Shown piece by piece: positions 20,132 to 36,970 of a DNA stretch of 36,970 nucleotides. This DNA comes from Nocardiopsis prasina DSM 43845 (lineage in GTDB: Bacteria > Actinomycetota > Actinomycetes > Streptosporangiales > Streptosporangiaceae): positions 1-36,970 of the forward strand of contig NZ_ANAE01000006.1 in NCBI RefSeq assembly GCF_000341265.1. The letters are read 5' to 3'. Below the pieces are notes generated by a model that ran no database searches, had not been told where the DNA came from, and was given only the letters and a program-made list of their open reading frames with translations. Every line of letters starts with the position of its first letter. The stretch's first letter is position 1. Made by a program: the position numbers and the translations under genes.

Positions 20132-21997
20132 ATGGACAGCGACGTCCCAGGCCCGTCCGGACCGGAACTGAAGGAGTACACCGCGCTGCTGAGGCGCCGC
20201 TGGCGCCTGGTGGGAGCCGGAGTGCTCGGCGGGCTGGTCCTGGCCACCGCCGCACTGTTCGCGGTTCCGGCGACCTACACCTCCGTGGCGGCCGTGCAGG
20301 TCCACCCGACGGGAATGGCCGAGTTCACAGGGGAGAGGTCCGGCCGCCTGACCGGCGACGTCAACCTCGACAGTGAGGCCCAGGTGGCGGTCTCCGACCA
20401 GGTCACGCGGGGCATGGCCGAGGAGCTGCCGGGCACGCCCTCCCCCGCCGACCTGCGGGAGCGGATCGACGTCACCGTCCCCTCCAACAGCAACATCCTC
20501 GAACTCCACTACTCGGCCCGATCCCCCGCAGCGGCCCGGGACGGGGCCGACGCCCTCGCCGCCGCCTATCTGGACCACCGCAGCGAGCAGGCCCGCGCGC
20601 TGATCAACGGGCGGCTGGACGCCCTGCGCGAGGAGCAGGAGGGCCTGTACGGGCGGCTCTCCGAGCTGGCCTCGGAGGGTTCCGAATCCGCACAGGTCAG
20701 CGCGGAAGCCCAGGCGGACGCGCTGCGCCAGGAGATCAGCGACCTCGGCAACGGCATCAGCCCGCTGAGCGCCCTGCTGGAGACGGTCTCGCCCGGCCAG
20801 GTGATCTCCCCGGCCGAACTGCCGGAGTCCCCCTCCTCCCCCGTGCCGCTGCTGTGGCTGGTCGCCGGTGCCGCCCTCGGTCTGATCGCCGGACTGCTCG
20901 CCGCGGTGGTCCGGGACCGCCTCGACCCGCGCGTCCACGACACGGAGGACACCGCCCGTATCGGCGCCGTCCCCGTCCTGCTGGACCTGTCCGCCGCCAG
21001 GGCCGACCGCTCCGCGCCCTCCCCCGGGCTACTCACGGACGCGGACCCCGTCGGCCAGCGCGCCAACGAGTTCGCGCACCTGGTCCGCGCCCGTCTGACC
21101 GATCCCGTGGCCACCGCCGCAACCGTTGACGACACCGACGACCGGCCCGCACCCGGGCGCGTACTCGTGGTCGCCGGGACCACCCCGGGGCGCGCGGGCA
21201 CCGCCGCCGCCGTGAACCTGGCCTCCGCCCTGGCCCGGACCGGCTCCGAGACCCTGCTGGTCTGCGCCGACCCGCGGGCAGGCACCGCCGAGGAACTCCT
21301 CGACCTGCCGGAGGGCCCCGGCCTGGCCGAGGTCCTGGTGGACGGGGAGGACCCCGCCGACCTGGAGGCTCGCCCCACCGCCGTGCCGCGCCTGCGGGTG
21401 CTCCGGCACGGCCGCCCGGGAGCGGTCGCCCCGGTCCAGGGCGGCGCCGCCGAACTGGTGGAGCTGCTGCGCCCGCGCGCCGCGTTCGTGGTGGTCGTCA
21501 CCGCGTCCGTGGTCGAGAGCGCCGACGCCCACGCCCTGGCCGCCTCCGCCGACCTCCTGCTGCCCGTGGTCGAGCTGGGTCGCACCCGGCGCGCCGACCT
21601 CACCGGCCTGGTCGCCGCCGGGGCGAGGTTCGGGGTGACCGTTCCTGGCGCCGTGACCGTGCCGCGCCAGCCGAACCCGGCCGCCGCGTCCACGTCCCGG
21701 AAGTCCGACGAGGCTCCCACCGACCCTGGGACCGCCGGAGTAGCGGAGTCCACCGAGGCCGCAAAGACCGCCGAAACCACCGGGGTCGCCGAGGCCACCG
21801 AGTTCGCCGGGGCCACCGAGGGCACCGAGGCCACCGAGGCCACCGAGGGCACCGAGGGCACCGAGGGCAGCGAGACTGACGGCTCCACCGAGGTTCCGGC
21901 GGGGTCCAACGGCACCAAGCCCGCCAAGGGCAAGTCCACGCCCGCGAAGAAGAAGTCGATCAAGCACAAGCCCGCACCCGCGGGGTCGCGGCCTTGA
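20132..21997 (+). CDS. Wzz-like polysaccharide co-polymerase with degenerate tyrosine-kinase domain
   Basis: A 621-residue membrane protein that should set chain length or assist export of the surface polymer. A Wzz domain has two transmembrane helices (27-45 and 238-260) and a helical extracellular part between them. Residues 343-500 resemble the BY-kinase/ParA-like ATPase domain, but its sites are broken. The P-loop reads GTTPGRAGT (349-357) without the essential Lys, Walker A' is LLVCADPR (375-382) without its first Asp, and Walker B lacks the Asp. The tail (540-590) is a Thr/Glu/Gly-rich low-complexity run, followed by a Lys-rich end; the usual tyrosine cluster is absent. GAGAGGA precedes the ATG at 20132. 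First gene of the operon. Confidence 0.82.
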   Translation: MDSDVPGPSGPELKEYTALLRRRWRLVGAGVLGGLVLATAALFAVPATYTSVAAVQVHPTGMAEFTGERSGRLTGDVNLDSEAQVAVSDQVTRGMAEELPGTPSPADLRERIDVTVPSNSNILELHYSARSPAAARDGADALAAAYLDHRSEQARALINGRLDALREEQEGLYGRLSELASEGSESAQVSAEAQADALRQEISDLGNGISPLSALLETVSPGQVISPAELPESPSSPVPLLWLVAGAALGLIAGLLAAVVRDRLDPRVHDTEDTARIGAVPVLLDLSAARADRSAPSPGLLTDADPVGQRANEFAHLVRARLTDPVATAATVDDTDDRPAPGRVLVVAGTTPGRAGTAAAVNLASALARTGSETLLVCADPRAGTAEELLDLPEGPGLAEVLVDGEDPADLEARPTAVPRLRVLRHGRPGAVAPVQGGAAELVELLRPRAAFVVVVTASVVESADAHALAASADLLLPVVELGRTRRADLTGLVAAGARFGVTVPGAVTVPRQPNPAAASTSRKSDEAPTDPGTAGVAESTEAAKTAETTGVAEATEFAGATEGTEATEATEGTEGTEGSETDGSTEVPAGSNGTKPAKGKSTPAKKKSIKHKPAPAGSRP

Positions 21998-23406
21998 CGG
22001 GCCGGGGCGCCGCCGTCGGCGGCCGATACGTGCCCGGTACGGCCTGGGAGGTCGCACCGCGACGCGGGGGCGCCCCGGTCACCGGGTCCCCGCTGGTGTG
22101 GTTGCTGGCCGGGTATCCGTTGTGGTGGGCGCTGGGGATGGGCCAGTTCGCCTACTGGCTGTTCGCCGTGCCCATGCTGGCCGAGCTGGTGCGCCGCCAC
22201 CGGACGGTGGGGCTGCGGGTCCCGTCCGGTTTCTGGCTGTGGGGGCTGTTCCTGCTGTGGACGGTCCTGGGCCTGGCGCTGGTCCCGTTGGAGATGCCGG
22301 GGACGGTGCCGGAGAGCGGGGGCTACCCCGGCGCCCTGCTGCGGGTGATCAACTACCTGGTGCTCACCGTGCTGCTGCTCTACGTGGGCAACCTGACCGA
22401 GCGCGAACTACCGGTCCGCGTGGTGGTGTGGGCCCTGGCGGTGCTGTGCGTGGTGACCGTCGTCGGCGGTTACCTCGGAATGCTCGCGCCCCGGTTCGAG
22501 TTCACCGCTCCCCTGGAGTACCTGGTGCCGGGCTCCCTGTCCCAGGACCCCTACATGCAGACCCTGATCCATCCGGCGTCCGCACAGATCATGGACGTGT
22601 TCGGCGGGATCGAGTCGGCCCGGCCCAAGGCTCCCTGGGAGTACACCAACGTGTGGGGCTACATGCTGTCCCTGCTGCTGGTGTGGGTCGTGGTGGGCTG
22701 GTTCGTCCAGGGTTCGGGGTGGGCCCGGCTGGGCGCCCTGGCCGTGCTCGCCGTGTCCGTGGCCCCCGTCGTGCACTCCCTGAACCGGGCCCTGTGGGCC
22801 GGGCTGGCGCTCTCGTTGGCGTTCGGCGCGGTGCAGGCGGTGCGCCGGGGCCGCGTGGTGCTGGTCGGCGCCGGGGCGGTGGCCGTGGTCGCGGTGCTGA
22901 TCGCCCTGGCCCTGTCCCCGCTCGCGGACGTCGTGCGGGCCCGCGCGGACAACCCGCACAGCGACGGCGGCCGGGCGGCGACCAACGCCGCCTCCGTCGA
23001 GGCCGCCAACCTGTCCCCGGTCAACGGGTGGGGCACCACCAGGGAGTCCCTGGGCAGCTCCGACTCCATCGCGATCGGCCCCACGGCCGAGTGTCCGGGC
23101 TGCGGCCAGCACGTGATCGGCAACGCCGGTCAGCTGTGGATCACCCTGATCTCCAGCGGCTGGGTGGGCACCGCACTGCTCTTCGGCTTCTTCGCCTGGG
23201 TGGCCTGGCGCCACCGGGCCGCGTCAACTCCGGTCGGCCAGGGAGCGCTCCTGACCGTCCTGCTTCTGTTCTGGTACATGTTCTTCTACGTCGCGCTCAT
23301 GTCCCCGCTCGCCGTCACCATGATCGCCGTCGCCCTGCTCTGGCGCGGCGAGGAACCGGTGGTCCGACGCGGCGGGGCGGCGCGCACCGGCGGGGGTGCC
23401 TGGTGA
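21994..23406 (+). CDS. O-antigen polymerase/ligase family membrane protein (Wzy-like)
   Basis: A 470-residue protein with roughly ten hydrophobic segments. A large extracellular loop (about 300-370) holds NRALWAGL before it and GWGTTRESL and CPGCGQHVIGNAGQLW within it. This layout is that of the Wzy_C/O-antigen ligase superfamily, which polymerises or transfers lipid-linked repeat units outside the membrane. The TTG at 21994 overlaps the preceding TGA (TTGA), implying coupling; a GTG at 22030 is an alternative start. Together with the Wzz-like protein before it and the flippase after it, it forms a Wzx/Wzy-type assembly route. Confidence 0.82.
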   Translation: MTGRGAAVGGRYVPGTAWEVAPRRGGAPVTGSPLVWLLAGYPLWWALGMGQFAYWLFAVPMLAELVRRHRTVGLRVPSGFWLWGLFLLWTVLGLALVPLEMPGTVPESGGYPGALLRVINYLVLTVLLLYVGNLTERELPVRVVVWALAVLCVVTVVGGYLGMLAPRFEFTAPLEYLVPGSLSQDPYMQTLIHPASAQIMDVFGGIESARPKAPWEYTNVWGYMLSLLLVWVVVGWFVQGSGWARLGALAVLAVSVAPVVHSLNRALWAGLALSLAFGAVQAVRRGRVVLVGAGAVAVVAVLIALALSPLADVVRARADNPHSDGGRAATNAASVEAANLSPVNGWGTTRESLGSSDSIAIGPTAECPGCGQHVIGNAGQLWITLISSGWVGTALLFGFFAWVAWRHRAASTPVGQGALLTVLLLFWYMFFYVALMSPLAVTMIAVALLWRGEEPVVRRGGAARTGGGAW

Positions 23407-24626
23407 ACAGCGAGACCACCTATCTGACCGACCTCGCGGCGGTGCTGTGGCCCTGCGGTGGCCTGCTCGGCACCGGGGACGGAGCGGTGCGCCGCATGGC
23501 GTACCGCAACCGGGGCAACCAGTACCTCCCGGTGCCCAACGCGCACAATCCCCGGGTGATCCTGCCCGCGCACAACCGCTCAGCGGCCACGAGGGGGATC
23601 ACCTCCTTCGCGCAGGGGCACTCTCTCGGCGAGCGGCTGCGGACCCTGCTGCTGACCGGCGCCTTCGCCACGGGGGTGGCGCCGCTGCTCCTGCGCGACC
23701 GACTGTTCGTGGGCGCGGGTCCGGGGATCGAGCACGCGCTCACCACGGCCCTGGACCGCGAACTGGCCATCGCGATCCACGTGGGCCCGCCGCGCGCCAA
23801 CCGCAAACCGGTCCTGCTCCTGCTCACTCCGGGCGGGCGCACCATCGGCTACGCCAAGGTGGCCGTCAACGAACTCACCACGCGACTGGTGCGCGCCGAG
23901 ACCGAGGCCCTGCGCCACCTCGGACAGGCGCGACTCCGGGACGTCACCGTGCCCCGTCTGCTCTACGACGGCGAGTGGAACGGGCACCCGCTGATGGTGC
24001 AGGAGGCGCTGCCCGTCGGCCATCAAACGGACCGACCCACCCGTTACCAACTACTGCGCTGCGTCACGCAGATCGTGGGGATGGACAAGGTGCGCGAGCG
24101 CCAACTCTCGGAGAGCCCGTACCTGAGGACCCTGGACGATCGCATCGCCCGGCTCGGGACCCGGCCCGAGGCCGCTCCCCTGCGCGCCGCTCTGCACCGG
24201 CTCCCCGACGTGTCCCTGCCCTTCGGGGCCTGGCACGGCGACCTGACCCGGTGGAACATCGCCAGCACCGCGCGCCGGGCCTTCGTGTGGGACTGGGAGC
24301 GACTCACCATGGACGCGCCAGCCGGTTTCGACGCCCTGCACTTCGACCTCAACGAGTGCGTGCAGGCCGGGGTGCACCCGGGGGTCCACCGGTGGCTGGA
24401 CAGCGGCACCCGGCTGCTCCGCGACCCGCTGATGGCGACGTGCGGCCTACGCGAGCACGCGGTGTCCACCGTGATGGCGCTGTACCTGATCGACCTCGCC
24501 ACGCGTTACCTGCACGACCGTCAGGCGGAGTCCGGCAGCGGCATGGCCGCCGTCGACGACTGGCTGCTGCCCGCGCTGGACGGACTCCAGGAGAGAGCGG
24601 CCCACGAGGCCGCCCACCCCGTCTGA
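23403..24626 (+). CDS. Phosphotransferase of the aminoglycoside/choline kinase fold in a polysaccharide operon
   Basis: A 407-residue cytoplasmic protein. The C-terminal half has the kinase signature: a possible ATP-binding Lys152 in GYAKVAV, the catalytic loop WHGDLTRWNI (277-286) and the metal-binding VWDWER (295-300). The N-terminal 120 residues match no family I know. Its GTG overlaps the preceding stop (GTGA), so it is a coupled member of the operon. In this setting it more likely phosphorylates a sugar, a polyprenyl-linked intermediate or a small alcohol than an antibiotic; that is inference from context. Resistance to an aminoglycoside cannot be claimed. Confidence 0.75.
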   Translation: MNSETTYLTDLAAVLWPCGGLLGTGDGAVRRMAYRNRGNQYLPVPNAHNPRVILPAHNRSAATRGITSFAQGHSLGERLRTLLLTGAFATGVAPLLLRDRLFVGAGPGIEHALTTALDRELAIAIHVGPPRANRKPVLLLLTPGGRTIGYAKVAVNELTTRLVRAETEALRHLGQARLRDVTVPRLLYDGEWNGHPLMVQEALPVGHQTDRPTRYQLLRCVTQIVGMDKVRERQLSESPYLRTLDDRIARLGTRPEAAPLRAALHRLPDVSLPFGAWHGDLTRWNIASTARRAFVWDWERLTMDAPAGFDALHFDLNECVQAGVHPGVHRWLDSGTRLLRDPLMATCGLREHAVSTVMALYLIDLATRYLHDRQAESGSGMAAVDDWLLPALDGLQERAAHEAAHPV

Positions 24627-24703
24627 CGGCCGCACCGGTCCGCGCCGATCCAAGCCACGAAGAAGCAGGCCGCGCCGCCCCGCGGCTGACCGACATCAGC
24701 CCG

Positions 24704-24726
24704 GCCCCCGTCCCCGGACGGGGGCC
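24704..24726 (+). promoter_or_regulatory. Intra-operon hairpin before the sulfotransferase gene
   Basis: GGCCCCCGTCC and GGACGGGGCC form a stem with a two-base loop, in the 122-base gap between the kinase and sulfotransferase genes, 12 bases before the ribosome site AAGGAG. It may act as an attenuator, a terminator or an RNA-processing site. Confidence 0.4.
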
Positions 24727-24748
24727 GCCCACACCCAAGGAGCTCGCG

Positions 24749-27183: not shown

Positions 27184-27254
27184 ACCCGGTACGCCCGTCC
27201 ACCGTGCCCACGACGCCCACACGCCAACACCCAGAGCAAGGGACTGATTACCGA

Positions 27255-27713
27255 ATGTCAGAACGACCGGTTCTCCTGGTGGCCTCAAGCGGCGGCCACC
27301 TCACCCAGTTGCGGTCCCTGCGTCCCTGGTGGCGTGGGCGGGAACGAGTCTGGGTCACCTTCCGCACTCCCGACGCCGAGACCTCGCTCACCGACGAGTC
27401 CGTGTACTGGGCGCACCACCCCACCACACGTGACGTCGGCAACCTGCTGCGCAACACCCTCCTGGCGCTCCGAGTGATGCGCGCGCGGCGCCCCGCCGCC
27501 GTGGTCAGCACCGGCGCCGGGGTCGCTCTTCCGTTCTTCGTCCTGGCCTGGCTGATGCGGGTCCCCACCGTCTACATCGAGGTGTACGACCGCATCGACA
27601 CCCCCACACTCACCGCCCGGCTCTGCAAGCCGTTCACCCGGCTGTACCTCGCCCAGTGGGAGGAACAGCGCTCGTTCATGCCGACCGCCATCACCGTAGG
27701 ACCGCTCCTGTGA
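27255..27713 (+). CDS. Alg14-like membrane-anchoring subunit of a glycosyltransferase (PssD/EpsE type)
   Basis: A 152-residue protein homologous to Alg14, which anchors and activates the catalytic Alg13 partner at the membrane. It shows VASSGGHLTQLRSL at the N-terminus, the hydrophobic ALPFFVLAWLMRVPTVYIE with the family's internal membrane-associated segment, and the C-terminal LYLAQWEEQ and VGPLL. It overlaps the next gene in GTGA, and that gene begins with the Alg13-like half, so the two products very likely form one enzyme. It probably adds a sugar from a UDP donor to a polyprenyl-linked acceptor; the sugar is not known. Confidence 0.85.
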   Translation: MSERPVLLVASSGGHLTQLRSLRPWWRGRERVWVTFRTPDAETSLTDESVYWAHHPTTRDVGNLLRNTLLALRVMRARRPAAVVSTGAGVALPFFVLAWLMRVPTVYIEVYDRIDTPTLTARLCKPFTRLYLAQWEEQRSFMPTAITVGPLL

Positions 27714-29242
27714 CCGAACAGACCACCCGACCCACCCAGAGCCCCGAGGGCAGCGACCACCCGGACGTGGTCGTCAGCCTCGGCACCGACCACCACTCCT
27801 TCGACCGCCTGGTGCGGTGGATCGACGACTACGCCCGCCGCAACCCCGACCTGTCCGTCCTGGTCCAGCACGGACACAGCCGGGCCCCGGAGAGGGCCTC
27901 GGGCACCCCGTTCCTGTCCGGAGAGGAGTTGTCCGAGACGATGCGCTCGGCCTCCGTCGTCGTCACGCACGGCGGCCCCGGCACCATCACCCAGGCGCGG
28001 ACCGCTGGCCACCTGCCTGTGGTGGTGGCCCGGGACCCCGAACTGGACGAGCACGTGGACGAGCACCAGTTGCTGTTCGTCCGCCGGGTCGAGGACGCGG
28101 GCCGGGTGCGCGCCTGCTCCACCGCCCAGCAGCTGCACGCGTTCATCGACAAGGCGCTGGAGTCCCCCGAGGACTTCCGGGTCGACCCCGCGGCCGACGA
28201 CGGCCCCGACCGCGCCGCCCTGCGCGCGGGCGAGCTCATCGACCTGCTCACCGACGAGGACCGGCCCACGGACGAAGGGACGGACACGCGGCGGGGTACC
28301 GGTACCGGGGTGACGACCGAGGTGCCCGGCGACACCTGGCCCGCAGTGACCGTGGTCGTGCCCACCCGGGACCGGCCCGAACTGCTGCGCCGCACCCTGC
28401 GATCGATCGTCGAGCAGGACTACCCGGGCCGGATCACCACGATCGTGGTGTTCGACAACGACCAGCCGGACCCCTCGCTCACGCACAGCGAGGGGGACCG
28501 CCCGGTCCGCGTGGTGACCAACACGCTCACCCCGGGGCTGGCCGGGGCGCGCAACACCGGTGTGCTGGGCGCCGACACCGATCTCGTGGCCTTCTGCGAC
28601 GACGACGACACCTGGATGTCCGACAAACTGCGCGCGCAGGTGCGGATCATGCGCGACGAGCCGGACACCGACATGGTGTGCTGCGGCATCCGGGTGGTCT
28701 ACGACCGGGTCGAGTCCGAGCGGACCCTGGACCGGACCAGCGTCACCTTCGCCGACCTGCTGCGCTCGCGCCTGACCGAACTGCACCCGTCCACGTTCCT
28801 GATCCGGCGCCGGGCCATGATCGACGGCTGCGGCACAGTGAGCGAGGAGATCCCCGGCAGCTACGCGGAGGACTACGAACTCCTGCTGCGGCTGGCCCGG
28901 CGGGCACCGATCCGCAACATCCCCGAGCCCGGCGTGCGGGTGCTGTGGCACCGCAAGTCGTTCTTCTCGGAGCGCTGGCAGACCATCTCCACGGCGTTGC
29001 GCTGGCTGCTGGAGCGCTATCCGGAGTTCGCCCTGGTGCCGCGCGGGTACGCGCGGATCGCGGGGCAGATCGCGTTCGCCGAGGCCGCGGCCAAACGGCG
29101 CGGACAGGCGCTGGTGTGGATCGGCCGGACCCTGCGCCACCGACCGGTCGAGGCCCGCGCCCTCCTGGCGTTCCTGGTGGTGTGCGGGGTCCCGCCCGCG
29201 TGGATCCTGCGGCTGCTCCACCTGCGCGGCAAGGGGGTCTGA
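27710..29242 (+). CDS. Fusion glycosyltransferase: Alg13-like domain plus GT2 domain
   Basis: A single frame of 510 residues with two catalytic modules. Residues 18-180 resemble Alg13/PssE (C-terminal half of a GT-B fold), with VVSLGTDHHSFDRLVRW near the start and the UDP-sugar loop THGGPGT at 86-92. A polar linker (181-208) leads to a GT-A family 2 domain at 209-430: VVVPTRDRPELLRRTL, the metal-binding FCDDDDTW (295-302), and SYAEDYELLLRLA as the catalytic-base region. The C-terminal 80 residues are helical and basic. The Alg13 partner Alg14 is the upstream gene, in GTGA overlap. The enzyme could perform two successive sugar additions. No frameshift or stop lies in the linker, so it is not a sequencing fusion by appearance. 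Confidence 0.85.
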   Translation: MTEQTTRPTQSPEGSDHPDVVVSLGTDHHSFDRLVRWIDDYARRNPDLSVLVQHGHSRAPERASGTPFLSGEELSETMRSASVVVTHGGPGTITQARTAGHLPVVVARDPELDEHVDEHQLLFVRRVEDAGRVRACSTAQQLHAFIDKALESPEDFRVDPAADDGPDRAALRAGELIDLLTDEDRPTDEGTDTRRGTGTGVTTEVPGDTWPAVTVVVPTRDRPELLRRTLRSIVEQDYPGRITTIVVFDNDQPDPSLTHSEGDRPVRVVTNTLTPGLAGARNTGVLGADTDLVAFCDDDDTWMSDKLRAQVRIMRDEPDTDMVCCGIRVVYDRVESERTLDRTSVTFADLLRSRLTELHPSTFLIRRRAMIDGCGTVSEEIPGSYAEDYELLLRLARRAPIRNIPEPGVRVLWHRKSFFSERWQTISTALRWLLERYPEFALVPRGYARIAGQIAFAEAAAKRRGQALVWIGRTLRHRPVEARALLAFLVVCGVPPAWILRLLHLRGKGV

Positions 29243-29251
29243 GGCGTGGCC

Positions 29252-29293
29252 CCCGGGTCGTTCCCCCGCCTCCGTATGGGGGGACGACCCGGG
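29252..29293 (+). terminator. Terminator of the exopolysaccharide operon
   Basis: CCCGGGTCGTTCCCC and GGGGGACGACCCGGG pair around a ten-base loop, ten bases after the stop of the fusion glycosyltransferase. Confidence 0.8.
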
Positions 29294-29642
29294 AGGGGCA
29301 GGCCCGGCGGAGGAAGCGGCGCCAGCGGCCCCAGCAGCCCGACGGTCCCACCAGCACCAGCAGGTGCCGGAGTCCCGGGGGTGGCCCCCAGGGTGTGGCC
29401 AGGGTGATGCTCAGCTGCGAACCGGCCAGCAGCGACGACCGGGTGCGCTCTTGCGCGCCGCGTGCGCCGACGAGCTGGTGTGCGCGGCCCTCCGCTGACG
29501 GTGGTGGCAAGGCCCCCTGGTGTCCAGGCCGTGACCCGACACAGCCGATAACCTCTCCCAAGTGCCCCGCACGGGGGCGGGGCACGCACACGACGACACG
29601 CTGGGGGACGCCATCTTCGAAGAGCACACGAACGGGGAGCAC
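29294..29642. other. Gene-free stretch before the acetyltransferase
   Basis: About 350 bases between the terminator and the GNAT start. Plus-strand frames are rich in Arg, Ser and Pro, and the minus-strand frame at 29411-29689 shows no family features. There may be remnants of a decayed gene, but none can be recognised. The promoter of the GNAT gene should lie near 29540-29630. Confidence 0.4.
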
Positions 29643-30227
29643 GTGATCAGGGAAGCCGACGTCGAGGACGTGGCCGGAGCCGCCGACACCCTCGCCGAGG
29701 CCTTCCGGGACTACCCCTTCACCCGACACACGATCTCCGCGGACGACCACCTCGCGCGGCTCCGCGAGTTCCAGCGGCTCTTCCTCGCCGAGGTGGGGCT
29801 TCCGCACGGCCGGGTGTGGGTGAGCGAGGACCTGGACGCCGTGGCCGTCTGGTCCACCCCGGACTCGGGCGGGGCCGAGGAGGTCATGGCCGAGATGCTG
29901 CCCACACTGGTCAACCTCGCGGGCGACCGGGCCGACTCCTACGCCTCGGCGGAGGCGGCCATGGAGGTCCACCGGCCGAAGGAACCGGTCTGGTTCCTGG
30001 GCACGGTGGGGGTGCGGACCCGGGCGCGGGGCCGGGGGCTGGGCCGGGCCGTGCTCCGCGCCGGACTGCGCGAGGCGGACGCGGCGGGCGTGCCCGCCTT
30101 CCTGGAGACCTCGACGCCGGAGAACGTCCGACTGTACGAGTCACTGGGCTTCTCCGTCACCGCCGAGTACGACCTGCCCGACGGCGGCCCGCACACATGG
30201 TCGATGTCCAGGCCCGTGGGTGGCTGA
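29643..30227 (+). CDS. GNAT family N-acetyltransferase
   Basis: A 194-residue cytoplasmic acetyl-CoA-dependent transferase. The acetyl-CoA loop is VRTRARGRGLGRAVL in the middle, preceded by the strand WFLGTVGV, and ENVRLYESLGFSV is the typical C-terminal motif. The N-terminus IREADVEDVAGAADTLAEAF is also typical. The acceptor is unknown. GGGGAG precedes the GTG at 29643, which I prefer to the longer frame from 29562. It converges on the GH26-like gene with a shared hairpin between them. A part in modifying the polysaccharide is possible but the gene lies outside the operon. Confidence 0.85.
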   Translation: MIREADVEDVAGAADTLAEAFRDYPFTRHTISADDHLARLREFQRLFLAEVGLPHGRVWVSEDLDAVAVWSTPDSGGAEEVMAEMLPTLVNLAGDRADSYASAEAAMEVHRPKEPVWFLGTVGVRTRARGRGLGRAVLRAGLREADAAGVPAFLETSTPENVRLYESLGFSVTAEYDLPDGGPHTWSMSRPVGG

Positions 30228-30231
30228 GCGC

Positions 30232-30268
30232 GTCGGGGCCGCCCCGGTGGTACCGGAGCGGCCCCGAC
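30232..30268. terminator. Bidirectional terminator between convergent genes
   Basis: GTCGGGGCCGC and GCGGCCCCGAC form a long stem, with CCGG and CCGG continuing it, around TGGTA. It sits between the stops of the GNAT and GH26-like genes. Confidence 0.75.
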
Positions 30269-30278
30269 CCGACCGGAC

Positions 30279-31406
30279 TCAGTCGCGGGTCACCGCGTAC
30301 TCCGCCAGGCGGCGGACACGGTCGGGCAGGTACACGTAGGGGTCCTTGCCCGCCTGCTCGAACCCGCGCCGGGCGTGCTCGTTGGCCAGGATCCGGAAGT
30401 CGCAGTCGTCTCCGACCTGGCTGTCCCAGAGCTTGACGGCGCGCACCCGCTCGTAGCGCCTGAGGACGTCCGGAACGTCCGTGTACCACTTCGTGGTCGC
30501 GCTGGGGCCGATGTCGGTGGTGCCCATCTCGCCGATCATGACCGGTTTCCCGGGGTCGATGCCGTGCTTGGGCCCCTCCTGCTGGATCCACTCGTAGGTG
30601 GGCGCCAGGGCGTCCTCGAAGGAGTCGACGTGGTCCCAGTTGTTCATCTTCTCGCAGCCGGTCATGTTGTACGCCTCCCAGCTGATCCAGTCGACGTAGT
30701 CGTTGCCGGGCCACAGGCCGGGGAGGCGGTCCAGGTTGCCGGGCCAGCCGGTCACGTTCCAGACCCAGATGACGTTGTCCGCGCCCTCCGACCGGTAGAG
30801 GTCGACGATGTGCCGCCAGGAGCTCACGAACTCCTCCGGTGTGCCCCGGTTGTTGTAGCGGGCCTTGCCGTCGGCCTCGTGGTCGAAGGTGACGAAGTAG
30901 GGCACGTCCAGTTCGGCGATGGACCGCGCCTGGGACCGCAGCGAGGAGTCGTAGCGCCCGGCGATGATGTCGCGGTAGGCGAGGTTGGGACGCCCTGGCT
31001 GGGTGAAGCCGCGGGCCTCGATGTTGGTGTGCACGAACCGGCCCTCGGCGATCATGCGCAGCTCGCGGTCACCGGGAACGTCGGGCTGGTCGATGCCGCG
31101 CCACGTGTAGACGATGTCCATCTTCCGGTCGGCCGCGGCCTCCAGCGCCTTCACGTCGTCTCCGTCGGGGCTGGCGCCCCACCAGACGCCGCAGGAGGGC
31201 TCGAGGATGTCCGAGACCGTGCAGTGGGTCTCCCGGGTGGAGGGCAGTCCGAGGAAGGACGCCGAGTTGGGGACCGGGCGGCTCTCCGGCGGCCGGTTCT
31301 CCGCCGGTTTCGCGGCGGCGGGGGGTTCGTCGCCCAGCCCCGCCAGCCCCAGCGCGAGCAGTGCCGCCCCCGCCGCCGCCCAAACTCGAACCGGTCCGCC
31401 CACCAT
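30279..31406 (-). CDS. Secreted glycoside hydrolase, GH26-like endo-glycanase
   Basis: A 375-residue exported enzyme. The N-terminus VRVWAAAGAALLALGLAGLG is a signal peptide or anchor, followed by a Pro/Ala/Glu-rich linker. The catalytic (beta/alpha)8 domain shows FVTFDHEADG with the probable acid/base Glu, VIWVWNVTGWPGN, YVDWISWEAYN, and PVMIGEMGTT with the probable nucleophile Glu. These are the landmarks of GH26 beta-mannanases and relatives, though HEADG replaces the common HEMNG. It may cut the polymer made by the neighbouring operon or act on plant mannan. I chose the ATG at 31406, with a G-rich ribosome site, over the ATG at 31463, which would put an odd extension before the signal peptide. 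Confidence 0.8.
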   Translation of the reverse strand: MVGGPVRVWAAAGAALLALGLAGLGDEPPAAAKPAENRPPESRPVPNSASFLGLPSTRETHCTVSDILEPSCGVWWGASPDGDDVKALEAAADRKMDIVYTWRGIDQPDVPGDRELRMIAEGRFVHTNIEARGFTQPGRPNLAYRDIIAGRYDSSLRSQARSIAELDVPYFVTFDHEADGKARYNNRGTPEEFVSSWRHIVDLYRSEGADNVIWVWNVTGWPGNLDRLPGLWPGNDYVDWISWEAYNMTGCEKMNNWDHVDSFEDALAPTYEWIQQEGPKHGIDPGKPVMIGEMGTTDIGPSATTKWYTDVPDVLRRYERVRAVKLWDSQVGDDCDFRILANEHARRGFEQAGKDPYVYLPDRVRRLAEYAVTRD

Positions 31407-31436
31407 GGTCAACCGCCCCCCAGCTATCCCGATGAC

Positions 31437-31492
31437 AACACAGAGTGTTCGCGTAATGACCATACGTTATCTTTTGTCGACGCAACACTCTG
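31437..31492 (-). promoter_or_regulatory. Inverted-repeat operator candidate upstream of the GH26-like gene
   Basis: Arms CAGAGTGTTCGCG (31441-31453) and CGCAACACTCTG (31481-31492) match except for one extra base. They enclose a 27-base AT-rich segment suited to promoter elements. The left arm is also half of a smaller palindrome, AACAC-AGA-GTGTT (31437-31449), so the word AACACTCTG or its complement occurs three times. A transcription factor may bind it; which one is unknown. Confidence 0.5.
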
Positions 31493-31510
31493 GGAACCAG
31501 GTAGCGGACA

Positions 31511-32437
31511 TCAGTACCCATAGCGTCCGCGTGTGGGAGCGGTGACCGCCTCCACCAGACACCGGCGCCACGGGGCCAACCCCCGCCGCCATCCGTGGTC
31601 GGCCCGAACCCCCACGGGGCCCGCCTGGAAGCGCATCGGGTTGCCGGAGACGGCGTGCCCCTCGGAGAGCTCCACCCCGCCCTCACCCAGCCGGAGCGGG
31701 GCGCCCGCGTGGCCCGCGAACGCGGCGACGCGCCCGAACTCGGCCTCGGGGTCGGCCACGAAGTCCTCGTAGCGCACCCTGAGCGTCGGGAGTCCCTGCC
31801 GGGCCAGCTCGTCCAGCGTGGAGTTCTGGGTCATCCACTGCACCGCCGATCGCCCCGCCGAGTACCGGGCCATCTCCGGTTCGGAGCTGTCCGGCGCGGC
31901 GTCCGGGCGGGCCACCCTCTTGCTCCAGGAGTGCGCCACCGCCCTGGGGTCGCGCACCACATGCAGGAGGCGCATCCTGGAGCCGTACCGCCAGCGCAGG
32001 CAGGCGGCCAGGGAGGCGTGCTTGCTGGCGTCCACGATCACCCGGGCGCCGCTGACCTCGGCGACGGCGGAGTAGAGCCGGTGGTAGAGCTCGGTGTAGC
32101 GCCCGCTCCGGGCCGCGAGGGCGCCCTCCCCCTCCGACCCCTGGAGGAGCCCCGGCAGGAACCGGGTCCGGTCGACACTGTCCTTGAGCCGCAGCACCGC
32201 ATCCACGTCCAGGCGCTCCCAGCCACCGAACGCCCGCTTGCCCACGTCGCCCCAGAAACCGCAGTCGGCGAAGGGCAGCCCGCACCCGCAGCGCTCGTTC
32301 TCCACCAGCCCCCGGCGCCACAGGTGCACGATCTCACCGACGGAGCAGAACCCGGGCAGCTCACCAAGGAGGCGTTCGATCAGCGTGGACCCGGAACGGC
32401 CCATCCCGCCGACGAACACCAGACGATATCCATCCAC
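31511..32437 (-). CDS. Sulfotransferase family protein (second copy)
   Basis: A 308-residue PAPS-dependent sulfotransferase unlike the one at 24749. The phosphosulfate loop is GGMGRSGSTLIERLL (10-24), and the 3'-phosphate motif is VVRDPRAVAHSWSKR. RYEDFVADPEAEF and a cysteine-rich piece CGCGLPFADCGFW near 50-62 match the family of bacterial proteins with a conserved CGC motif, often linked to polysaccharide or lipid sulfation. The G-rich GGGGTCG before the ATG is a weak ribosome site. It lies upstream of the GH26-like gene on the same strand, about 100 bases apart, with a candidate operator between. Confidence 0.82.
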   Translation of the reverse strand: MDGYRLVFVGGMGRSGSTLIERLLGELPGFCSVGEIVHLWRRGLVENERCGCGLPFADCGFWGDVGKRAFGGWERLDVDAVLRLKDSVDRTRFLPGLLQGSEGEGALAARSGRYTELYHRLYSAVAEVSGARVIVDASKHASLAACLRWRYGSRMRLLHVVRDPRAVAHSWSKRVARPDAAPDSSEPEMARYSAGRSAVQWMTQNSTLDELARQGLPTLRVRYEDFVADPEAEFGRVAAFAGHAGAPLRLGEGGVELSEGHAVSGNPMRFQAGPVGVRADHGWRRGLAPWRRCLVEAVTAPTRGRYGY

Positions 32438-32507
32438 GACCCCAGGCTATTACCTTTGGTCATGAACCCTGAACGCACAGTGACGGACTGATTCCCGCGC
32501 ACGGCAA

Positions 32508-32546
32508 CGGCCCCGGGTCGGGAGGTGTGCTCCCGGCCCGGGGCCG
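32508..32546 (-). terminator. Terminator of the subtilase gene
   Basis: CGGCCCCGGG-CCGGGAG and CTCCCG-CCCGGGGCCG pair with a single bulge around a five-base loop, 60 bases after the protease stop. Confidence 0.75.
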
Positions 32547-32608
32547 CGGTGTCGCCAGTCAGTTCCGGTGGGTGTGGACGCGCGGGGTCTCCACAGTCCG
32601 GTGGGTTC

Positions 32609-33766
32609 CTACAGACCCTCGACGTTCAGCAGCAGGTTCACGGTGCTGCTGGGAACGCCACTGAGCTTGTCCGCACCGGCGTTCTCGACGAGCCAGTCCA
32701 GGATGACGCCCTGGTCGTCGTCGCCGAGGGAGCTCTTGTACAGAGCGGCGGCGCCGGCCACGTGCGGGCTGGCCATGGAGGTGCCGGAGTAGCTGTCCGT
32801 GCCGCCACCGGGGATGGTGGACTCGACGTCGACGCCGGGGGCGTAGATGTCGACGGACGGACCGTGGTTGGAGAAGGAGGCGGTGGCGTCGGAGTCGTCG
32901 GAGGCACCGACGCTGACCACGCCCTCGGCGCCGCCCGGGGAGACGTTGCCCGCGTCCTGGCCCTCGTTGCCCGCGGCGACCGCAACGAACACGCCGGAGT
33001 CGGCCAGGGCGTTGACGGCGTCGTCGACGGCCTGTGAGGCCGGGCCGCCCAGGGACAGGTTGGCGACCGCGTTGGCGTCGGCGTTCTCGGCCACCCACTC
33101 GATGCCCGCGATGACGTCGTCGTAGGTGCCCGAACCGTCGTCGCCGAGGACCTTCACGCCGTAGAGCGAGGCGCCCGGCGCCACGCCGTAGCCGTCGGCG
33201 CCCACGGTGCCCGCGACGTGCGTGCCGTGGCCCTGACGGTCGCCGCCGTCGCCGCCGGTGGCGTCGAACCCGACCTCGGCGCGACCGCCGAAGTCCGGGT
33301 GGGAGTCGTCGATGCCGGTGTCGATGATGTAGACGGAGGTGCCGCTGCCGTCCGACTCCGTGGTGTAGGAGCCGTCCAGGGGCAGGTCCTCCTGGTCGAT
33401 GCGGTCCAGGCCCCACGGGACCATGGTGGTGGCTTCACCGACCTGCTCGATGTAGGCGACGCCGTCCTGGGCGCGCAGCTCCTCGACCTCGGCGGCGCTC
33501 AGCTCGGCCGAGTAACCGTTGATGGTCTCCTCGTAGGTGTGGTTGACCTGGCTCTCCGAGATGCCGAGGGAGGCCGGGGAGACGGAGCTCGTGGTGATGG
33601 TGTCCTCAAGGACCACGAACCAGTCGCCGCTGGAGGCGGACGAGTTCGTGTACACCGGCGCGAGGTCCGAGGCGCCGGCGGTGGCGCCGCTCAGCGCCAG
33701 GGGAATGGTGAGTGCACTGACCGCGACAGCGCTGAACGCGACCCTGCGAGTGGGGTGCTTCTTCAC
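32609..33766 (-). CDS. Secreted subtilisin-like serine protease (S8) with I9 propeptide
   Basis: A 385-residue extracellular protease. Residues 1-31 are a signal peptide (MKKHPTRR, then a hydrophobic core ending in ATAGA). Residues 48-110 form an inhibitor I9 propeptide (DWFVVLED to GVAYIEQ). In the catalytic domain the triad is Asp149 in YIIDTGID, His180 in GHGTHVAG and Ser330 in SGTSMASPHVAG; Asn267 in AAGN is the oxyanion residue. The mature enzyme would be about 270 residues with no extra C-terminal domain. AAGGAG lies eight bases before the GTG at 33766. The frame continues upstream to an ATG at 33913, but that part does not look like a protein. Confidence 0.94.
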   Translation of the reverse strand: MKKHPTRRVAFSAVAVSALTIPLALSGATAGASDLAPVYTNSSASSGDWFVVLEDTITTSSVSPASLGISESQVNHTYEETINGYSAELSAAEVEELRAQDGVAYIEQVGEATTMVPWGLDRIDQEDLPLDGSYTTESDGSGTSVYIIDTGIDDSHPDFGGRAEVGFDATGGDGGDRQGHGTHVAGTVGADGYGVAPGASLYGVKVLGDDGSGTYDDVIAGIEWVAENADANAVANLSLGGPASQAVDDAVNALADSGVFVAVAAGNEGQDAGNVSPGGAEGVVSVGASDDSDATASFSNHGPSVDIYAPGVDVESTIPGGGTDSYSGTSMASPHVAGAAALYKSSLGDDDQGVILDWLVENAGADKLSGVPSSTVNLLLNVEGL

Positions 33767-34222
33767 GCGTTTCTCCTTGTGGGGGTTTCCATAGTGGGAG
33801 CACGCGCCAGGCCATAACCGTCCGTATTGGATCGATTGCGACCCTGTACGCGATTCGCACACTTTAGGCAGACTTGACCCCGGATTGCCAGAGGCTGAGA
33901 GAATTTTTCTCAAAGATCACCCTCCGCACTCCTATCCGATAGGTCAGGATCACTCCGTTCGAGGTGACACTCTGGTTGGTTCTCACACCTGGACACGGCC
34001 CTAACGCCGGGTAACTTGGACTCCTCCGGGCACACCATTGACCCTGACCCGATCGGCACCGAGGACCAGAAAAAGTACTCCCAGGATTCACACTCGGAAA
34101 TGTCCGCTTAAGAAACCGGCGCACGAGGGACCCGACTCGGACCCTCCACGAGCACCACTCGGAACACGCGAAACGGGGCCGCCGAAAGGCGTGAGGAATG
34201 TTTGGCCATTCAGCGGGTACGT
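33767..34222. promoter_or_regulatory. Gene-free region upstream of the protease, with two palindromes
   Basis: About 456 bases separate the cysN stop from the protease start. CCTATC-C-GATAGG (33931-33943) and TGAGAGAA-T-TTTTCTCA (33896-33912, one G-T pair) are palindromes suitable for regulator binding. Both lie 130-180 bases upstream of the protease start. The area is less GC-rich than the genes. No clear cysN terminator is seen, and no small ORF is convincing. Confidence 0.4.
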
Positions 34223-35491
34223 CTAGTCAGCTTTGACGACCATTCCGGCGCCCACCGTGGTGTTGGTGGCCTCGTCGATGAGGATGAACCCGCCGGTCTG
34301 CCGGTTCTTGGCGTACTCGTCCACGAACAGGGGCTGGGTGGAGCGCAGCCGCACCCGCCCGATCTCGTTGAGCGACAGGTGGTCCGCGCCCTCGTCGCGG
34401 TGCAGCGAGTTCACGTCCAGCCGGTACCGCAGGTCCTTGACCACCACCTTCGCGGTCCTGGTCGTGTGCTTGACGATGAGCTTGGAGCGCGGCGTGAGCT
34501 TGCGCGCGTCCGTCATCCAGCACACCATCGCCTCGATGTCCTGGGACACCGTGGGCGTGTTGTTGGGGCGGCAGATCATGTCGCCCCGGGAGATGTCGAT
34601 CTCGTCCTCCAGCAGCAGGGTGACCGACATGGGCGAGAACGCCTCGGCCACCTCCCCGTCCGCCGTGCGGATCTTCGCGATCCGCGTGGACAGCCCTGAG
34701 GGCAGGTGGGTGACCTCGTCACCGGGCTTGAGGACGCCGCCCGCGAGCTGGCCCGCGTAGCCCCGGTAGTCGTGCAGTTCGGGGTCGTCCGAGCGGTGCG
34801 GCCTGATCACGTACTGCACGGGGAAGCGCGCGTCGATCAGGTTGCGGTCCGAGGCGATGTGCACGTTCTCCAGGTGGTGCAGCAGGGAACCGCCCGTGTA
34901 CCAGGGCGTGTTCTCGGACTGGCTGACCACGTTGTCGCCGTGCAGCGCGGAGATCGGCACGAACGTGAGGTCGCGCGCGTCCAGCTTGGCCGCGAACTCG
35001 GAGAACTCGGACTTGATCTCCTCGAAGCGGTCCTGGGAGTAGTCGACCAGGTCCATCTTGTTCACCGCCAGCACCAGGTGCGGCACCTGGAGCAGGGTGG
35101 TGAGGAAGGCGTGGCGGCGGCTCTGCTCCTGGAGGCCCTTGCGGGCGTCCACCAGGATGATCGCGAGGTCGGCCGTGGAGGCGCCCGTGACCATGTTCCG
35201 GGTGTACTGGATGTGCCCGGGGGTGTCCGCGATGATGAAGGTGCGCTTGGGCGTGGCGAAGTAGCGGTACGCCACGTCGATGGTGATGCCCTGCTCGCGT
35301 TCGGCGCGCAGACCGTCCGTGAGCAGCGCCAGGTTGGTCTGTTCCTCGCCGCGCGCGGCGCTGGTGCGCTCCACGGCGTCGAGCTGGTCCTCGAAGATGG
35401 ACTTGGAGTCGTACAGCAGGCGCCCGATCAGGGTGCTCTTGCCGTCGTCGACGGAGCCCGCCGTGGCGAACCGCAGGATGTCGTTGCTCAT
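34223..35491 (-). CDS. cysN: Sulfate adenylyltransferase subunit 1 (GTPase)
   Basis: The GTPase subunit that drives ATP sulfurylase (CysD) to make adenosine 5'-phosphosulfate from sulfate and ATP. It has 422 residues. GTPase motifs are AGSVDDGKSTLIGRL (11-25), GITIDVAYRYF, DTPGH (near 89-93) and NKMD. EF-Tu-like domains 2 and 3 follow. There is no C-terminal APS kinase domain, unlike the mycobacterial CysNC fusion. So APS, not PAPS, is the product here, and a separate cysC must exist if the sulfotransferases nearby are to work. AGAGGACC precedes the ATG. The cysD-cysN gap of 106 bases contains a copy of the core of the 134-bp repeat. Confidence 0.95.
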   Translation of the reverse strand: MSNDILRFATAGSVDDGKSTLIGRLLYDSKSIFEDQLDAVERTSAARGEEQTNLALLTDGLRAEREQGITIDVAYRYFATPKRTFIIADTPGHIQYTRNMVTGASTADLAIILVDARKGLQEQSRRHAFLTTLLQVPHLVLAVNKMDLVDYSQDRFEEIKSEFSEFAAKLDARDLTFVPISALHGDNVVSQSENTPWYTGGSLLHHLENVHIASDRNLIDARFPVQYVIRPHRSDDPELHDYRGYAGQLAGGVLKPGDEVTHLPSGLSTRIAKIRTADGEVAEAFSPMSVTLLLEDEIDISRGDMICRPNNTPTVSQDIEAMVCWMTDARKLTPRSKLIVKHTTRTAKVVVKDLRYRLDVNSLHRDEGADHLSLNEIGRVRLRSTQPLFVDEYAKNRQTGGFILIDEATNTTVGAGMVVKAD

Positions 35492-35570
35492 GGTGACTGG
35501 TCCTCTGCGCGAAGTGTGGGGCGGTCAACAACCGTGGGGACGGGAGGTACGGAGGGAATCGCTGGCCTCG

Positions 35571-35590
35571 GCGAAGCGGAGGCCCAAGAG
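35571..35590 (-). repeat. Dispersed copy of the 134-bp repeat core
   Basis: The minus strand here reads CTTGGGCCTCCGCTTCGC, identical over 18 bases to the copy at 8237-8254, and continues with CGAGGCCAGCG, loosely similar to the array. It lies between cysD and cysN, on the opposite strand relative to the array at 8097. Confidence 0.6.
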
Positions 35591-35597
35591 GACGTGG

Positions 35598-36530
35598 CTA
35601 GAAGTAGCCCTCGCGCTTGCGGTCCTCCATGGCGGCCTCGCTGGCCCGGTCGTCGGCGCGGGTTTGGCCGCGCTCGGTGATCCGGGTGGCGGCGATCTCC
35701 GCGATGATGTCGTCCAGCTCCACGGCCGAGGACTTGACCGCTCCGGTGCAGGTGAGGTCGCCGACGGTGCGGTAGCGCACGGTCTCGGTGAACGGGACCT
35801 CGGTCTCGTCCCGCTGGATGAGCGGCGAGTCCGCGAGCAGGATGCCGTCGCGCTCGAACACGCTCCGCTGGTGGGCGAAGTAGATCGAGGGCAGCTCCAG
35901 CTCCTCGCGCTGGATGTACCCCCACACGTCGAGCTCGGTCCAGTTGGAGATCGGGAAGACCCGGATGTGCTCGTCCCGGTTGATCCGGGTGTTGAACACG
36001 TTCCAGAGCTCGGGGCGCTGGTTCTTGGGGTCCCACTGGCCGAACTCGTCACGGAAGGAGAAGACCCGTTCCTTGGCCCGGGCCTTCTCCTCGTCACGGC
36101 GGGCGCCCCCGAAGGCGGCCGTGAAACTGTGCTCCTCGATGGCCTCCAGCAGCGCCGAGGTCTGGAGGCGGTTGCGGCTGGCCCAGCGGCCGGTGGGCTC
36201 GGTGACCTTGCCCGCGTCGATCTGCTCCTGGACCGAGGCCACCACCAGGCGGACCCCGGCCTGGGCGACGCGCCGGTCCCGGAACTCGATGACCTCTTCG
36301 AAGTTGTGCCCGGTGTCCACGTGCATCACCGGGAAGGGCACCGGGGCGGGCCAGAAGGCCTTCTCCGCCAGGCGCAGCATCACGATGGAGTCCTTGCCGC
36401 CGGAGAAGAGCAGCACGGGCCGCTCGAACTCCGCCGCCACCTCGCGCATGATGAAGATCGCCTCGGCTTCGAGGACGTCCAGCTGGGAGAGCTGGTAGCG
36501 CCCGAGCGCCTGCTGACTCGCCTGACCCAT
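35598..36530 (-). CDS. cysD: Sulfate adenylyltransferase subunit 2
   Basis: The catalytic subunit of the CysDN ATP sulfurylase, 310 residues. The PP-loop SGGKDSIVMLRLA (about 43-55) binds ATP. VMHVDTGHNFEEV, AFGGARRDEEKARAKER and the C-terminal DRASEAAMEDRKREGYF tail are typical of the family. The ATG at 36530 has AAGGCGG as ribosome site; the ATG at 36560 is not needed. It lies 60 bases after cysQ and 106 before cysN, all on the minus strand, forming a cysQ-cysD-cysN operon without cysC between. Confidence 0.96.
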   Translation of the reverse strand: MGQASQQALGRYQLSQLDVLEAEAIFIMREVAAEFERPVLLFSGGKDSIVMLRLAEKAFWPAPVPFPVMHVDTGHNFEEVIEFRDRRVAQAGVRLVVASVQEQIDAGKVTEPTGRWASRNRLQTSALLEAIEEHSFTAAFGGARRDEEKARAKERVFSFRDEFGQWDPKNQRPELWNVFNTRINRDEHIRVFPISNWTELDVWGYIQREELELPSIYFAHQRSVFERDGILLADSPLIQRDETEVPFTETVRYRTVGDLTCTGAVKSSAVELDDIIAEIAATRITERGQTRADDRASEAAMEDRKREGYF

Positions 36531-36590
36531 GGAATCCGCCTTAGAAATACCGACACCCAAGTCCGGTTCCGCGGCGGTGGGTGCTGCGGT

Positions 36591-36970
36591 TCAGCCCCCC
36601 GCGTGCGGACCGGCGCTGTCAAGGTCCGCGCCGTCGCGGATGCTTGCCAACAACATACCCGACAATTCCGATCGGCATACAAGGATATCGGGGAGTAGCG
36701 GGTCGGACACGTTGTAGCGCAGCTGCGAGCCGTCGATCCTGGACGTGTGCAGTCCGGCGGCGCGCGCGACGGCGACCGGCGCGGCGCTGTCCCACTCGTA
36801 CTGGCCGCCCGCGTGCACGTAGATGTCGGCGATCCCGAGCAGCACGGCGCAGATCTTGGCCCCCGCCGATCCCATGGGGATCACTTCGGCGCCCATCTGG
36901 GTCGCCATGCGCTGGACGAACGCCGGAGGCCGGGTCCGGCTGGCGGGGATGCGCAGCCGCTGCCCCCCCG
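36591..36970 (-). CDS. cysQ: 3'(2'),5'-bisphosphate nucleotidase CysQ (5' end outside window)
   Basis: Removes the 3'-phosphate from PAP, the by-product of PAPS-dependent sulfotransfer, and from PAPS itself. The C-terminal 126 residues are present. MGSAGAKICAVLLG and HAGGQYEWDSAAPVAVARA are the metal- and substrate-binding signatures of this inositol monophosphatase-superfamily enzyme, and the end LPDILVCRSE also matches actinobacterial CysQ. The frame continues open to the right edge (GGQRLRIPASRTRPPAF). It is the upstream gene of the cysQDN operon. Confidence 0.9.
   Translation of the reverse strand, partial: GGQRLRIPASRTRPPAFVQRMATQMGAEVIPMGSAGAKICAVLLGIADIYVHAGGQYEWDSAAPVAVARAAGLHTSRIDGSQLRYNVSDPLLPDILVCRSELSGMLLASIRDGADLDSAGPHAGG

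Follow-up and report, generated by a model that had tools for sequence, protein, structure and literature searches.

A Nocardiopsis prasina locus that probably makes a sulfated Wzx/Wzy-type polysaccharide

We describe a set of genes in Nocardiopsis prasina DSM 43845 that probably directs, by the Wzx/Wzy route, the synthesis of a sulfated polysaccharide, either extracellular or on the cell surface. The genes lie in a window of 36,970 bp that is the whole of contig C6 (NZ_ANAE01000006.1; source assembly 5,998,803 bases in 240 contigs), and they comprise a polymer-assembly run with Wzx, Wzy and Wzz relatives, two sulfotransferase genes (ST1 and ST2), a gene for a glycanase of glycoside hydrolase family 26 (GH26) and the sulfate-activation genes cysQ-cysD-cysN (cysQDN). 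Gene content, adjacency, co-occurrence, largely joint loss and the fold class of ST1 are established directly; of the readings considered, a sulfated polymer of the Wzx/Wzy type fits this comparative evidence best. A first-pass annotation of the window had proposed such a polymer, and the co-occurrence of ST1 with Wzy, a priming transferase gene beside cysQ and the linkage to cysD all argue for it.

Results

Co-occurrence in 100 genomes of the family

We surveyed 100 genomes of the family, from 68 genera, using E-value thresholds of 1e-20 for ST2 and GH26, 1e-60 for cysD, the priming transferase gene and adenosine 5'-phosphosulfate (APS) kinase, 1e-10 for ST1 and 1e-15 for Wzy. For the main counts, ST1 matches below 100 bits were dropped, which reduced ST1 from 81/100 to 71/100 genomes, as were matches to the N-terminal halves of ST2 genes already counted. 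Relatives were found in the following numbers of genomes: Wzy 68, ST2 65, GH26 43, priming gene 84, cysD 99 and APS kinase 100, the last with a match that covers the kinase domain alone in about 40. Contigs, genomes and loci are given below as C, G and L numbers where they must be told apart.

ST1 is present in 67 of the 68 genomes that have Wzy as against 4 of the 32 that lack it, and ST2 in 61/68 against 4/32. The first-pass annotation had suggested synteny in related genomes as a check on its reading, and the distances bear it out: in all 66 genomes that have Wzy and ST1 on one contig the two are no more than 10 kb apart, and Wzy and cysD, which share a contig in 58 of the 68, are within 25 kb in 57 of these (the exception is G081, at 31 kb). 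In 57 of the 65 genomes that carry ST2 it is no more than 20 kb from cysD, and in 43/65 it follows cysD on the same strand after a gap of less than 2.1 kb, which leaves room for cysN. The priming gene lies on the cysD strand and within 3 kb of cysD in 62/68 Wzy-positive genomes versus 7/32 Wzy-negative ones; the six misses are G000, where a contig break separates the gene from cysD, and G002, G005, G014, G057 and G094. APS kinase is on the contig of Wzy in 53/68 genomes, never more than 20 kb away, and stands at the far end of the polymer locus in many related genera. GH26 is the weakest link: 29 genomes have a match no more than 20 kb from ST2; in the closer genera the matches are near relatives, in other genomes remote homologues. 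By these counts, the grouping of polymer, sulfotransferase and cys genes is far from chance.

Gene layout of the window

Pfam and NCBIfam matches place the Wzx/Wzy/Wzz operon, both sulfotransferases, the GH26 gene and cysQ-cysD-cysN exactly where the first-pass annotation had put them. A plus-strand run from Wzz to the PssE-GT2 fusion faces a minus-strand run that comprises GH26, ST2, a protease, cysN, cysD and cysQ. The genes are as follows.

20132..21997, plus: Wzz-type co-polymerase with a C-terminal domain resembling bacterial tyrosine (BY) kinases; PF02706 26.9 bits (cut-off 25.5), NCBIfam exopolysaccharide families below their cut-offs
21994..23406, plus: Wzy polymerase or O-antigen-ligase-like protein; PF04932 at 5.6e-05, under its cut-off; relatives in 68/100 family genomes
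23403..24626, plus: APH-fold kinase, not in the first-pass annotation; PF01636 34.5 bits
24749..25624, plus: ST1, putative sulfotransferase of the heparan sulfate type, dependent on 3'-phosphoadenosine 5'-phosphosulfate (PAPS); PF13469, PF00685
25594..27183, plus: Wzx flippase or MATE-like protein; PF01554 22.4 bits, under its cut-off, and NF041503 weak; position conserved in relatives
27255..27713, plus: PssD-like half of a two-part glycosyltransferase; open frame kept in relatives and named by its position beside a PssE domain
27656..29242, plus: PssE (GT28 C-terminal) domain fused to a GT2 glycosyltransferase; PF04101, PF00535; NF041548 (PssE) 73.5 bits (cut-off 120)
29562..30227: GNAT protein
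30279..31463 (internal start 31406), minus: GH26-family glycanase; PF02156
31511..32437, minus: ST2, second putative PAPS-type sulfotransferase; PF13469
32609..33766, minus: subtilisin-like protease with I9 propeptide, between cysN and ST2
34223..35491, minus: cysN, ATP sulfurylase GTPase subunit; TIGR02034 571 bits, NF003478 over its cut-off
35598..36560, minus: cysD, ATP sulfurylase subunit; PF01507; sole CysD-type match in the genome
36591..36968, minus: cysQ, phosphatase of 3'-phosphoadenosine 5'-phosphate (PAP), C-terminal part; PF00459 over its cut-off, TIGR01331 under its full-length cut-off

Since the window is an entire contig, cysQ is interrupted at its end. Flippase, polymerase, co-polymerase and glycosyltransferases, which together mark a Wzx/Wzy locus, all occur here; the Pfam scores of Wzx and Wzy lie under the curated cut-offs, and the positions of both genes are conserved. 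Among 21 loci compared, 16 are of the Nocardiopsis type (Nocardiopsis, Streptomonospora and one record named Glycomyces), and of these 15 have GH26, 14 have ST2 and 12 have cysN, counted over flanks of about 10 kb, with L016 and L025 stopping at contig ends and extra DNA displacing genes in L015, L024 and L026. The protease is present in only 7/16 and was therefore left outside the module; the GNAT gene, found in only 10/16, was set aside likewise.

The Glycomyces record (L023, NYMS01000004.1) bears the title Glycomyces fuscus TRM 49117. Every gene of the Nocardiopsis/Streptomonospora locus except the protease has its match there, at 61-93% identity, and for this reason the name or the assembly of the record may be wrong.

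Priming transferase and sulfate activation

Two functions missing from the window according to the first-pass annotation, a priming transferase and an APS kinase, were both located by searching the genome, which gave one match for each. The end of C6 overlaps the start of contig C7 with 102 of 103 bases identical and one mismatch, placing the assembly break inside cysQ. C7 opens with the N-terminal part of cysQ (L011 1-519), followed by the priming transferase gene (L011 523-2046), which holds the sole PF02397 match found in the genome (C7:544-1107). This gene lies upstream of cysQ on the same strand and ends 3 bases before the cysQ start. In N. terrae (L021) priming gene and cysQ adjoin in just this way without a break in the sequence, and the last 42 residues are the same.

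The APS kinase domain on contig C162 sits in a protein (L001) that also has PUA-like and ATP-sulfurylase-like domains. The active-site motif of ATP sulfurylases is Q-x-R-N-P-x-H, and reads QTRNPMH in PDB 1m8p; all 12 aligned C162-type proteins of the family have this motif altered but keep an intact kinase P-loop. Because the motif is altered, we consider it unlikely from sequence that the C162 protein acts as an ATP sulfurylase. Its best solved match, PDB 3cr8, which we take to be the two-domain APS kinase of Thiobacillus denitrificans, is built alike, with an ATP-sulfurylase-like N-terminal domain whose motif is altered and an intact kinase P-loop.

PF01507 gave two matches in the genome, cysD and CysH, and on this ground we reject a second cysD dedicated to the polymer. 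CysH is encoded on contig C156, away from the locus and next to a gene for a sulfite/nitrite reductase. When CysH is aligned with PDB 7lhr, named phosphoadenosine phosphosulfate reductase by its depositors, the paired cysteines of the two coincide. Reductases with such paired cysteines use APS, not PAPS; if CysH does so, PAPS would be made mainly for sulfation.

Sulfotransferases

In alignments, ST1 and ST2 each show glycine-rich loops together with RDP segments, as expected of a PAPS site. The best named relative of ST1 is from Nocardiopsis eucommiae (93%). Against solved sequences, 13 of 14 ST1 matches are heparan sulfate enzymes (3-O- and N-sulfotransferases), and the remaining one, top-ranked, is the bacterial sulfotransferase 3rnl; 3rnl is also the top match of the predicted ST1 fold (predicted local distance difference test score, pLDDT, 88.7), for which 20 of the first 21 matches are heparan sulfate enzymes, several chains per enzyme being counted. 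By sequence and predicted fold, ST1 is thus closest to the heparan sulfate sulfotransferase family. The ST2 model (pLDDT 92.0) gave weak and mixed fold matches to tyrosylprotein, polyketide and small-molecule sulfotransferases.

The genome has a third sulfotransferase gene (PF13469) on contig C128 (L012 9145-10026), whose neighbours, judged from N-terminal letters, look unlike those of a polysaccharide cluster.

Polymer-assembly proteins and glycanase

In the kinase-like domain of Wzz the P-loop reads GRAGTA, and there are no tyrosines among the last 130 residues. An intact BY-kinase P-loop has the motif G-x-GKST, and the domain looks inactive, with a P-loop that appears degenerate. The APH-fold kinase is 81-92% identical in 15 of the 16 Nocardiopsis-type loci, namely those whose sequence stretch reaches it. 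The first 31 bp of the Wzx open frame are shared with the end of ST1; the true start of Wzx may be later than that of the open frame.

Starting the GH26 protein at 31406 gives a signal-peptide-like N-terminus, as judged by eye. Its nearest solved relatives are endoglucanase H (GH26) and beta-1,3-xylanases, and it aligns to endoglucanase H across the domain, including an HE segment and a GE/AE segment, which we take to hold the catalytic residues. A GH26 match in another genome of the genus (G046, C91:26462-27634) has three in-frame TGA codons and is possibly a pseudogene or the product of sequencing errors.

Gain, loss and spread of the locus

The fullest run, L069 in G038, reads priming gene-cysQ-cysD-cysN-ST2-GT2-WecG-type glycosyltransferase-third sulfotransferase and continues Wzx-ST1-APH-Wzy-Wzz-GH26-TauE/SafE transporter-APS kinase, with WecG, the third sulfotransferase and TauE confirmed by Pfam. 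Gene calls at the loci of relatives, as for the 12 C162-type proteins, come from a simple codon-usage predictor whose start sites are unreliable.

At the corresponding site of polymer-poor genomes the typical order is rplY-pth-cysQ-cysD-cysN, then remnants, then an mfd-type gene and APS kinase in either order (rplY and pth were confirmed by Pfam in L058 only and mfd in L037 only). The remnants are APH and PssE-GT2 and, in two loci, ST1; decayed fragments of the priming gene adjoin cysQ in 6/12 loci of polymer-poor genomes. Polymer genes and priming gene come and go at the cysQDN site largely together.

Replacement is seen as well. In G075, G091 and G098 a diverged cluster adjoins cysQDN (ST1 at 36-38% and Wzy at 30-32% identity). 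Second-copy Wzy-ST1 pairs occur in G004, G044, G062, G070 and G095, on other contigs or 1.2 Mb from cysD; their scores are similar to those of the diverged cluster, a comparison made without a tree. These pairs, together with the polymer-free cysQDN sites, mean that the polymer and sulfotransferase genes and cysQDN can each exist without the other nearby. In G048 and G089 (L046, L047), priming gene-cysQ-cysD-cysN stands beside rml-like and other sugar genes.

Among 296 genomes from the class, at least 54 have strong relatives by the ST1 profile, a lower bound since eight candidates were scored per genome, and at least 30 of these genomes are outside the family. We examined 20 loci from 20 of 30 such outside genomes, in stretches of 6.6-19.9 kb: every locus carries a relative of Wzx, Wzy or Wzz, or of more than one of them, and a cysQ relative and an APS kinase were found in one locus each.

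Discussion

Proposed route

In the mechanism we propose, the priming transferase encoded upstream of cysQ would load the first sugar phosphate onto undecaprenyl phosphate, and the PssD/PssE-GT2 enzymes would lengthen this to a short repeat. ST1, and probably also ST2, would sulfate the repeat in the cytoplasm with PAPS, after which Wzx would flip it, Wzy polymerise it and Wzz set the chain length; the GH26 enzyme may trim or release the polymer outside the cell. CysDN would make APS, a CysC-type kinase would convert APS to PAPS, and CysQ would clear the PAP left by the sulfotransferases, CysDN presumably also serving cysteine synthesis.

Weighing the evidence

Several observations weigh against this reading. 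Both the sulfation of the polymer and the enzyme activities are predictions from sequence. The single APS kinase match in the genome (C162:116373-116828) is outside the window contig, and cysQDN holds the only CysD found in the source genome. The order cysQ-cysD-cysN was kept in 40 of 40 family loci examined whether Wzy was present or not, and 14/32 Wzy-negative genomes have APS kinase no more than 30 kb from cysD, so the positions of these genes need not serve the polymer. With the uncut threshold of 1e-10, an ST1-like match is present in 68/68 Wzy-positive but also in 13/32 Wzy-negative genomes. In G048 and G089 no ST1 or ST2 match was found at the survey thresholds, and in these genomes another polymer may accompany the cys unit, or a sulfotransferase may have gone unrecognised. 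Neither cysD nor cysN was found in any of the 20 outside-family loci over the 6.6-19.9 kb examined, and linkage to cysDN is therefore a feature of the family, as far as sampled. The 100 genomes share ancestry and are not independent, so that Fisher values are descriptive. As to substrates, the fold of ST2 points to no clear class. In 3-O-sulfotransferases a glutamate before the HFF motif is catalytic; ST1 has glycine there (K-G-V-H-Y-F), as do at least 90% of the 30 aligned sequences, and for this reason we do not class ST1 as a 3-O-sulfotransferase.

The constant order of cysQDN, the presence of cysD in 99/100 genomes and the placement of APS kinase near cysD without Wzy indicate that the cys genes are core genes, presumably shared with sulfate assimilation. 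This raises a doubtful but not negligible alternative, that the polymer may be sulfated while cysQDN is merely the ancestral chromosomal site at which its genes sit, the linkage having no functional meaning. The polymer-poor sites described above suit that view, as do polymer loci of other families, where rplY/pth/prs/glmU or mfd-like neighbours were seen (by eye, from N-terminal letters) in at least 6/20 without cysDN. However, the priming gene is on the cysQDN strand and mostly gone where the polymer is gone, ST2 directly follows cysN in 43/65 genomes, a diverged cluster stands beside cysQDN in three genomes, and the other end of L069 is capped by a TauE-type transporter and APS kinase. The first-pass annotation had itself named general conservation of the cys genes in genomes that lack the polymer operon as grounds against its reading; this applies in part, to cysQDN, which is kept without Wzy, but not to the polymer and priming genes, which come and go there largely together.

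It is unlikely that the sulfated product is instead a wall- or protein-linked glycan (of teichuronic or glycoprotein type), with Wzy acting as a ligase, rather than a released exopolysaccharide. In its favour, PF04932, the O-antigen-ligase family in which the Wzy-like protein has its match (below cut-off), includes both polymerases and ligases, and in a cell with one membrane an outer-membrane exporter is unnecessary; yet the presence of a Wzz-type co-polymerase as a protein of its own and the signal-peptide-like start of the glycanase suit a polymer, and the matching cluster of Actinoplanes missouriensis affects the sporangium (PMC13390465). It is very improbable that ST1, ST2 or both transfer sulfate to a small metabolite or a glycolipid and only happen to adjoin a plain exopolysaccharide operon. 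The mixed nearest folds of ST2 would allow this, but the ST1 gene is flanked by those for the kinase and Wzx and accompanies Wzy in 67/68 genomes, the protein is nearest to heparan sulfate enzymes, and deletion of the A. missouriensis counterparts wpsH and, less so, wpsB is described as affecting sporangia or spore release (PMC13390465). A sulfated Wzx/Wzy-type polymer is the more probable account.

Implications

If the locus works as it looks, many genera of soil actinomycetes carry the genes for a sulfated polysaccharide and, linked to these, a large part of the sulfate-donor cycle, new bacterial sulfotransferases of the heparan type are on offer, and the question of a sulfated polymer becomes directly testable in cultured strains. 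More tentatively, it is possible that across this large family and beyond the polymer is a glycan of the developmental matrix with a sulfate supply built into the locus: the APS kinase would lack sulfurylase function, assimilation would run via APS and an iron-sulfur-type CysH, PAPS would be made mainly for the polymer, and CysQ would remove the by-product. Spore-forming actinomycetes would then routinely make glycosaminoglycan-like sulfated matrices during development.

Comparison with known systems

A search of the open-licence literature returned nothing joining sulfotransferase, exopolysaccharide, Wzx and actinobacteria, and nothing that we judged, from the listed papers, to be on point for Nocardiopsis or Streptosporangi- names. 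The first-pass annotation was right that sulfated exopolymers are little described in actinomycetes, except that a matching cluster, wps-1 of A. missouriensis (AMIS_7280-7380, with neighbour AMIS_7390), was published with mutants in June 2026 (PMC13390465). Published work has taken cyanobacteria to be the only bacteria with sulfated polysaccharides, although sulfated capsules of marine Gram-negative bacteria have also been described (PMC11641403, PMC11766843).

The capsules of Vibrio sp. KMM 8419 (PMC11641403) and Cobetia marina KMM 1449 (PMC11766843) were solved by nuclear magnetic resonance, and PAPS genes and sulfotransferases lie in their clusters, a combination that the Vibrio paper calls a hallmark of sulfated polysaccharide synthesis (PMC11641403). 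By that measure the window has cysDN, cysQ, ST1 and ST2, with the APS kinase on another contig here and linked in many relatives. In the portions of these papers drawn on, sulfotransferases accompany cysN and cysD as in the window, cysC is also in both clusters, and Cobetia further has cysQ and a sulfate permease; the two differ from the window in ABC-transporter export and Gram-negative hosts, and the Vibrio PAPS genes are second copies, whereas one cysD was found in our source genome. The cyanobacterial xss cluster for Synechan in Synechocystis, whose product was shown to be sulfated, resembles the window in having Wzx, Wzy and co-polymerase with two sulfotransferases of different subfamilies; in the passages covered, neither a gene for sulfate activation nor GH26 nor a kinase of the APH type is named for that cluster (PMC8205485).

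The closest system is wps-1, here compared by the published description and not by alignment. Its authors predict a sulfated polysaccharide and state that the sulfate awaits verification (PMC13390465). Deletions of most wps-1 genes disturb sporangia; that of wpsD has no effect, that of wpsE a mild one, and that of wpsB leaves sporangia normal in appearance with fewer spores released (PMC13390465). Among the three flanking genes, deletion of AMIS_7260 or AMIS_7270 is without effect, and the AMIS_7390 mutant loses normal sporangia, which was called unexpected (PMC13390465). Our comparison points to a role of AMIS_7390-type proteins in making PAPS, in association with the polymer locus, so that the mutant may lack normal sporangia because it has no sulfate donor; loss of PAPS would explain the defect if the polymer is indeed a developmental matrix glycan.

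Like wps-1, the window has Wzx, a heparan-type sulfotransferase, a kinase-like protein (WpsI, of which the APH-fold kinase would be the counterpart), Wzy and Wzz in the same order, together with GT2, GH26 and a second sulfotransferase. The sulfate adenylyltransferase/APS kinase gene that adjoins wps-1 has its like in many relatives of the window, while the window's own APS kinase is not adjacent but on another contig. The WecG-type enzyme, methyltransferase and DUF4262 protein described for wps-1 were not among the window genes scanned, the search being confined to these genes. The Nocardiopsis locus, unlike wps-1, also has cysN-cysD-cysQ, the priming transferase and PssD/PssE, and we regard it as an extended version of the wps-1 kind already described.

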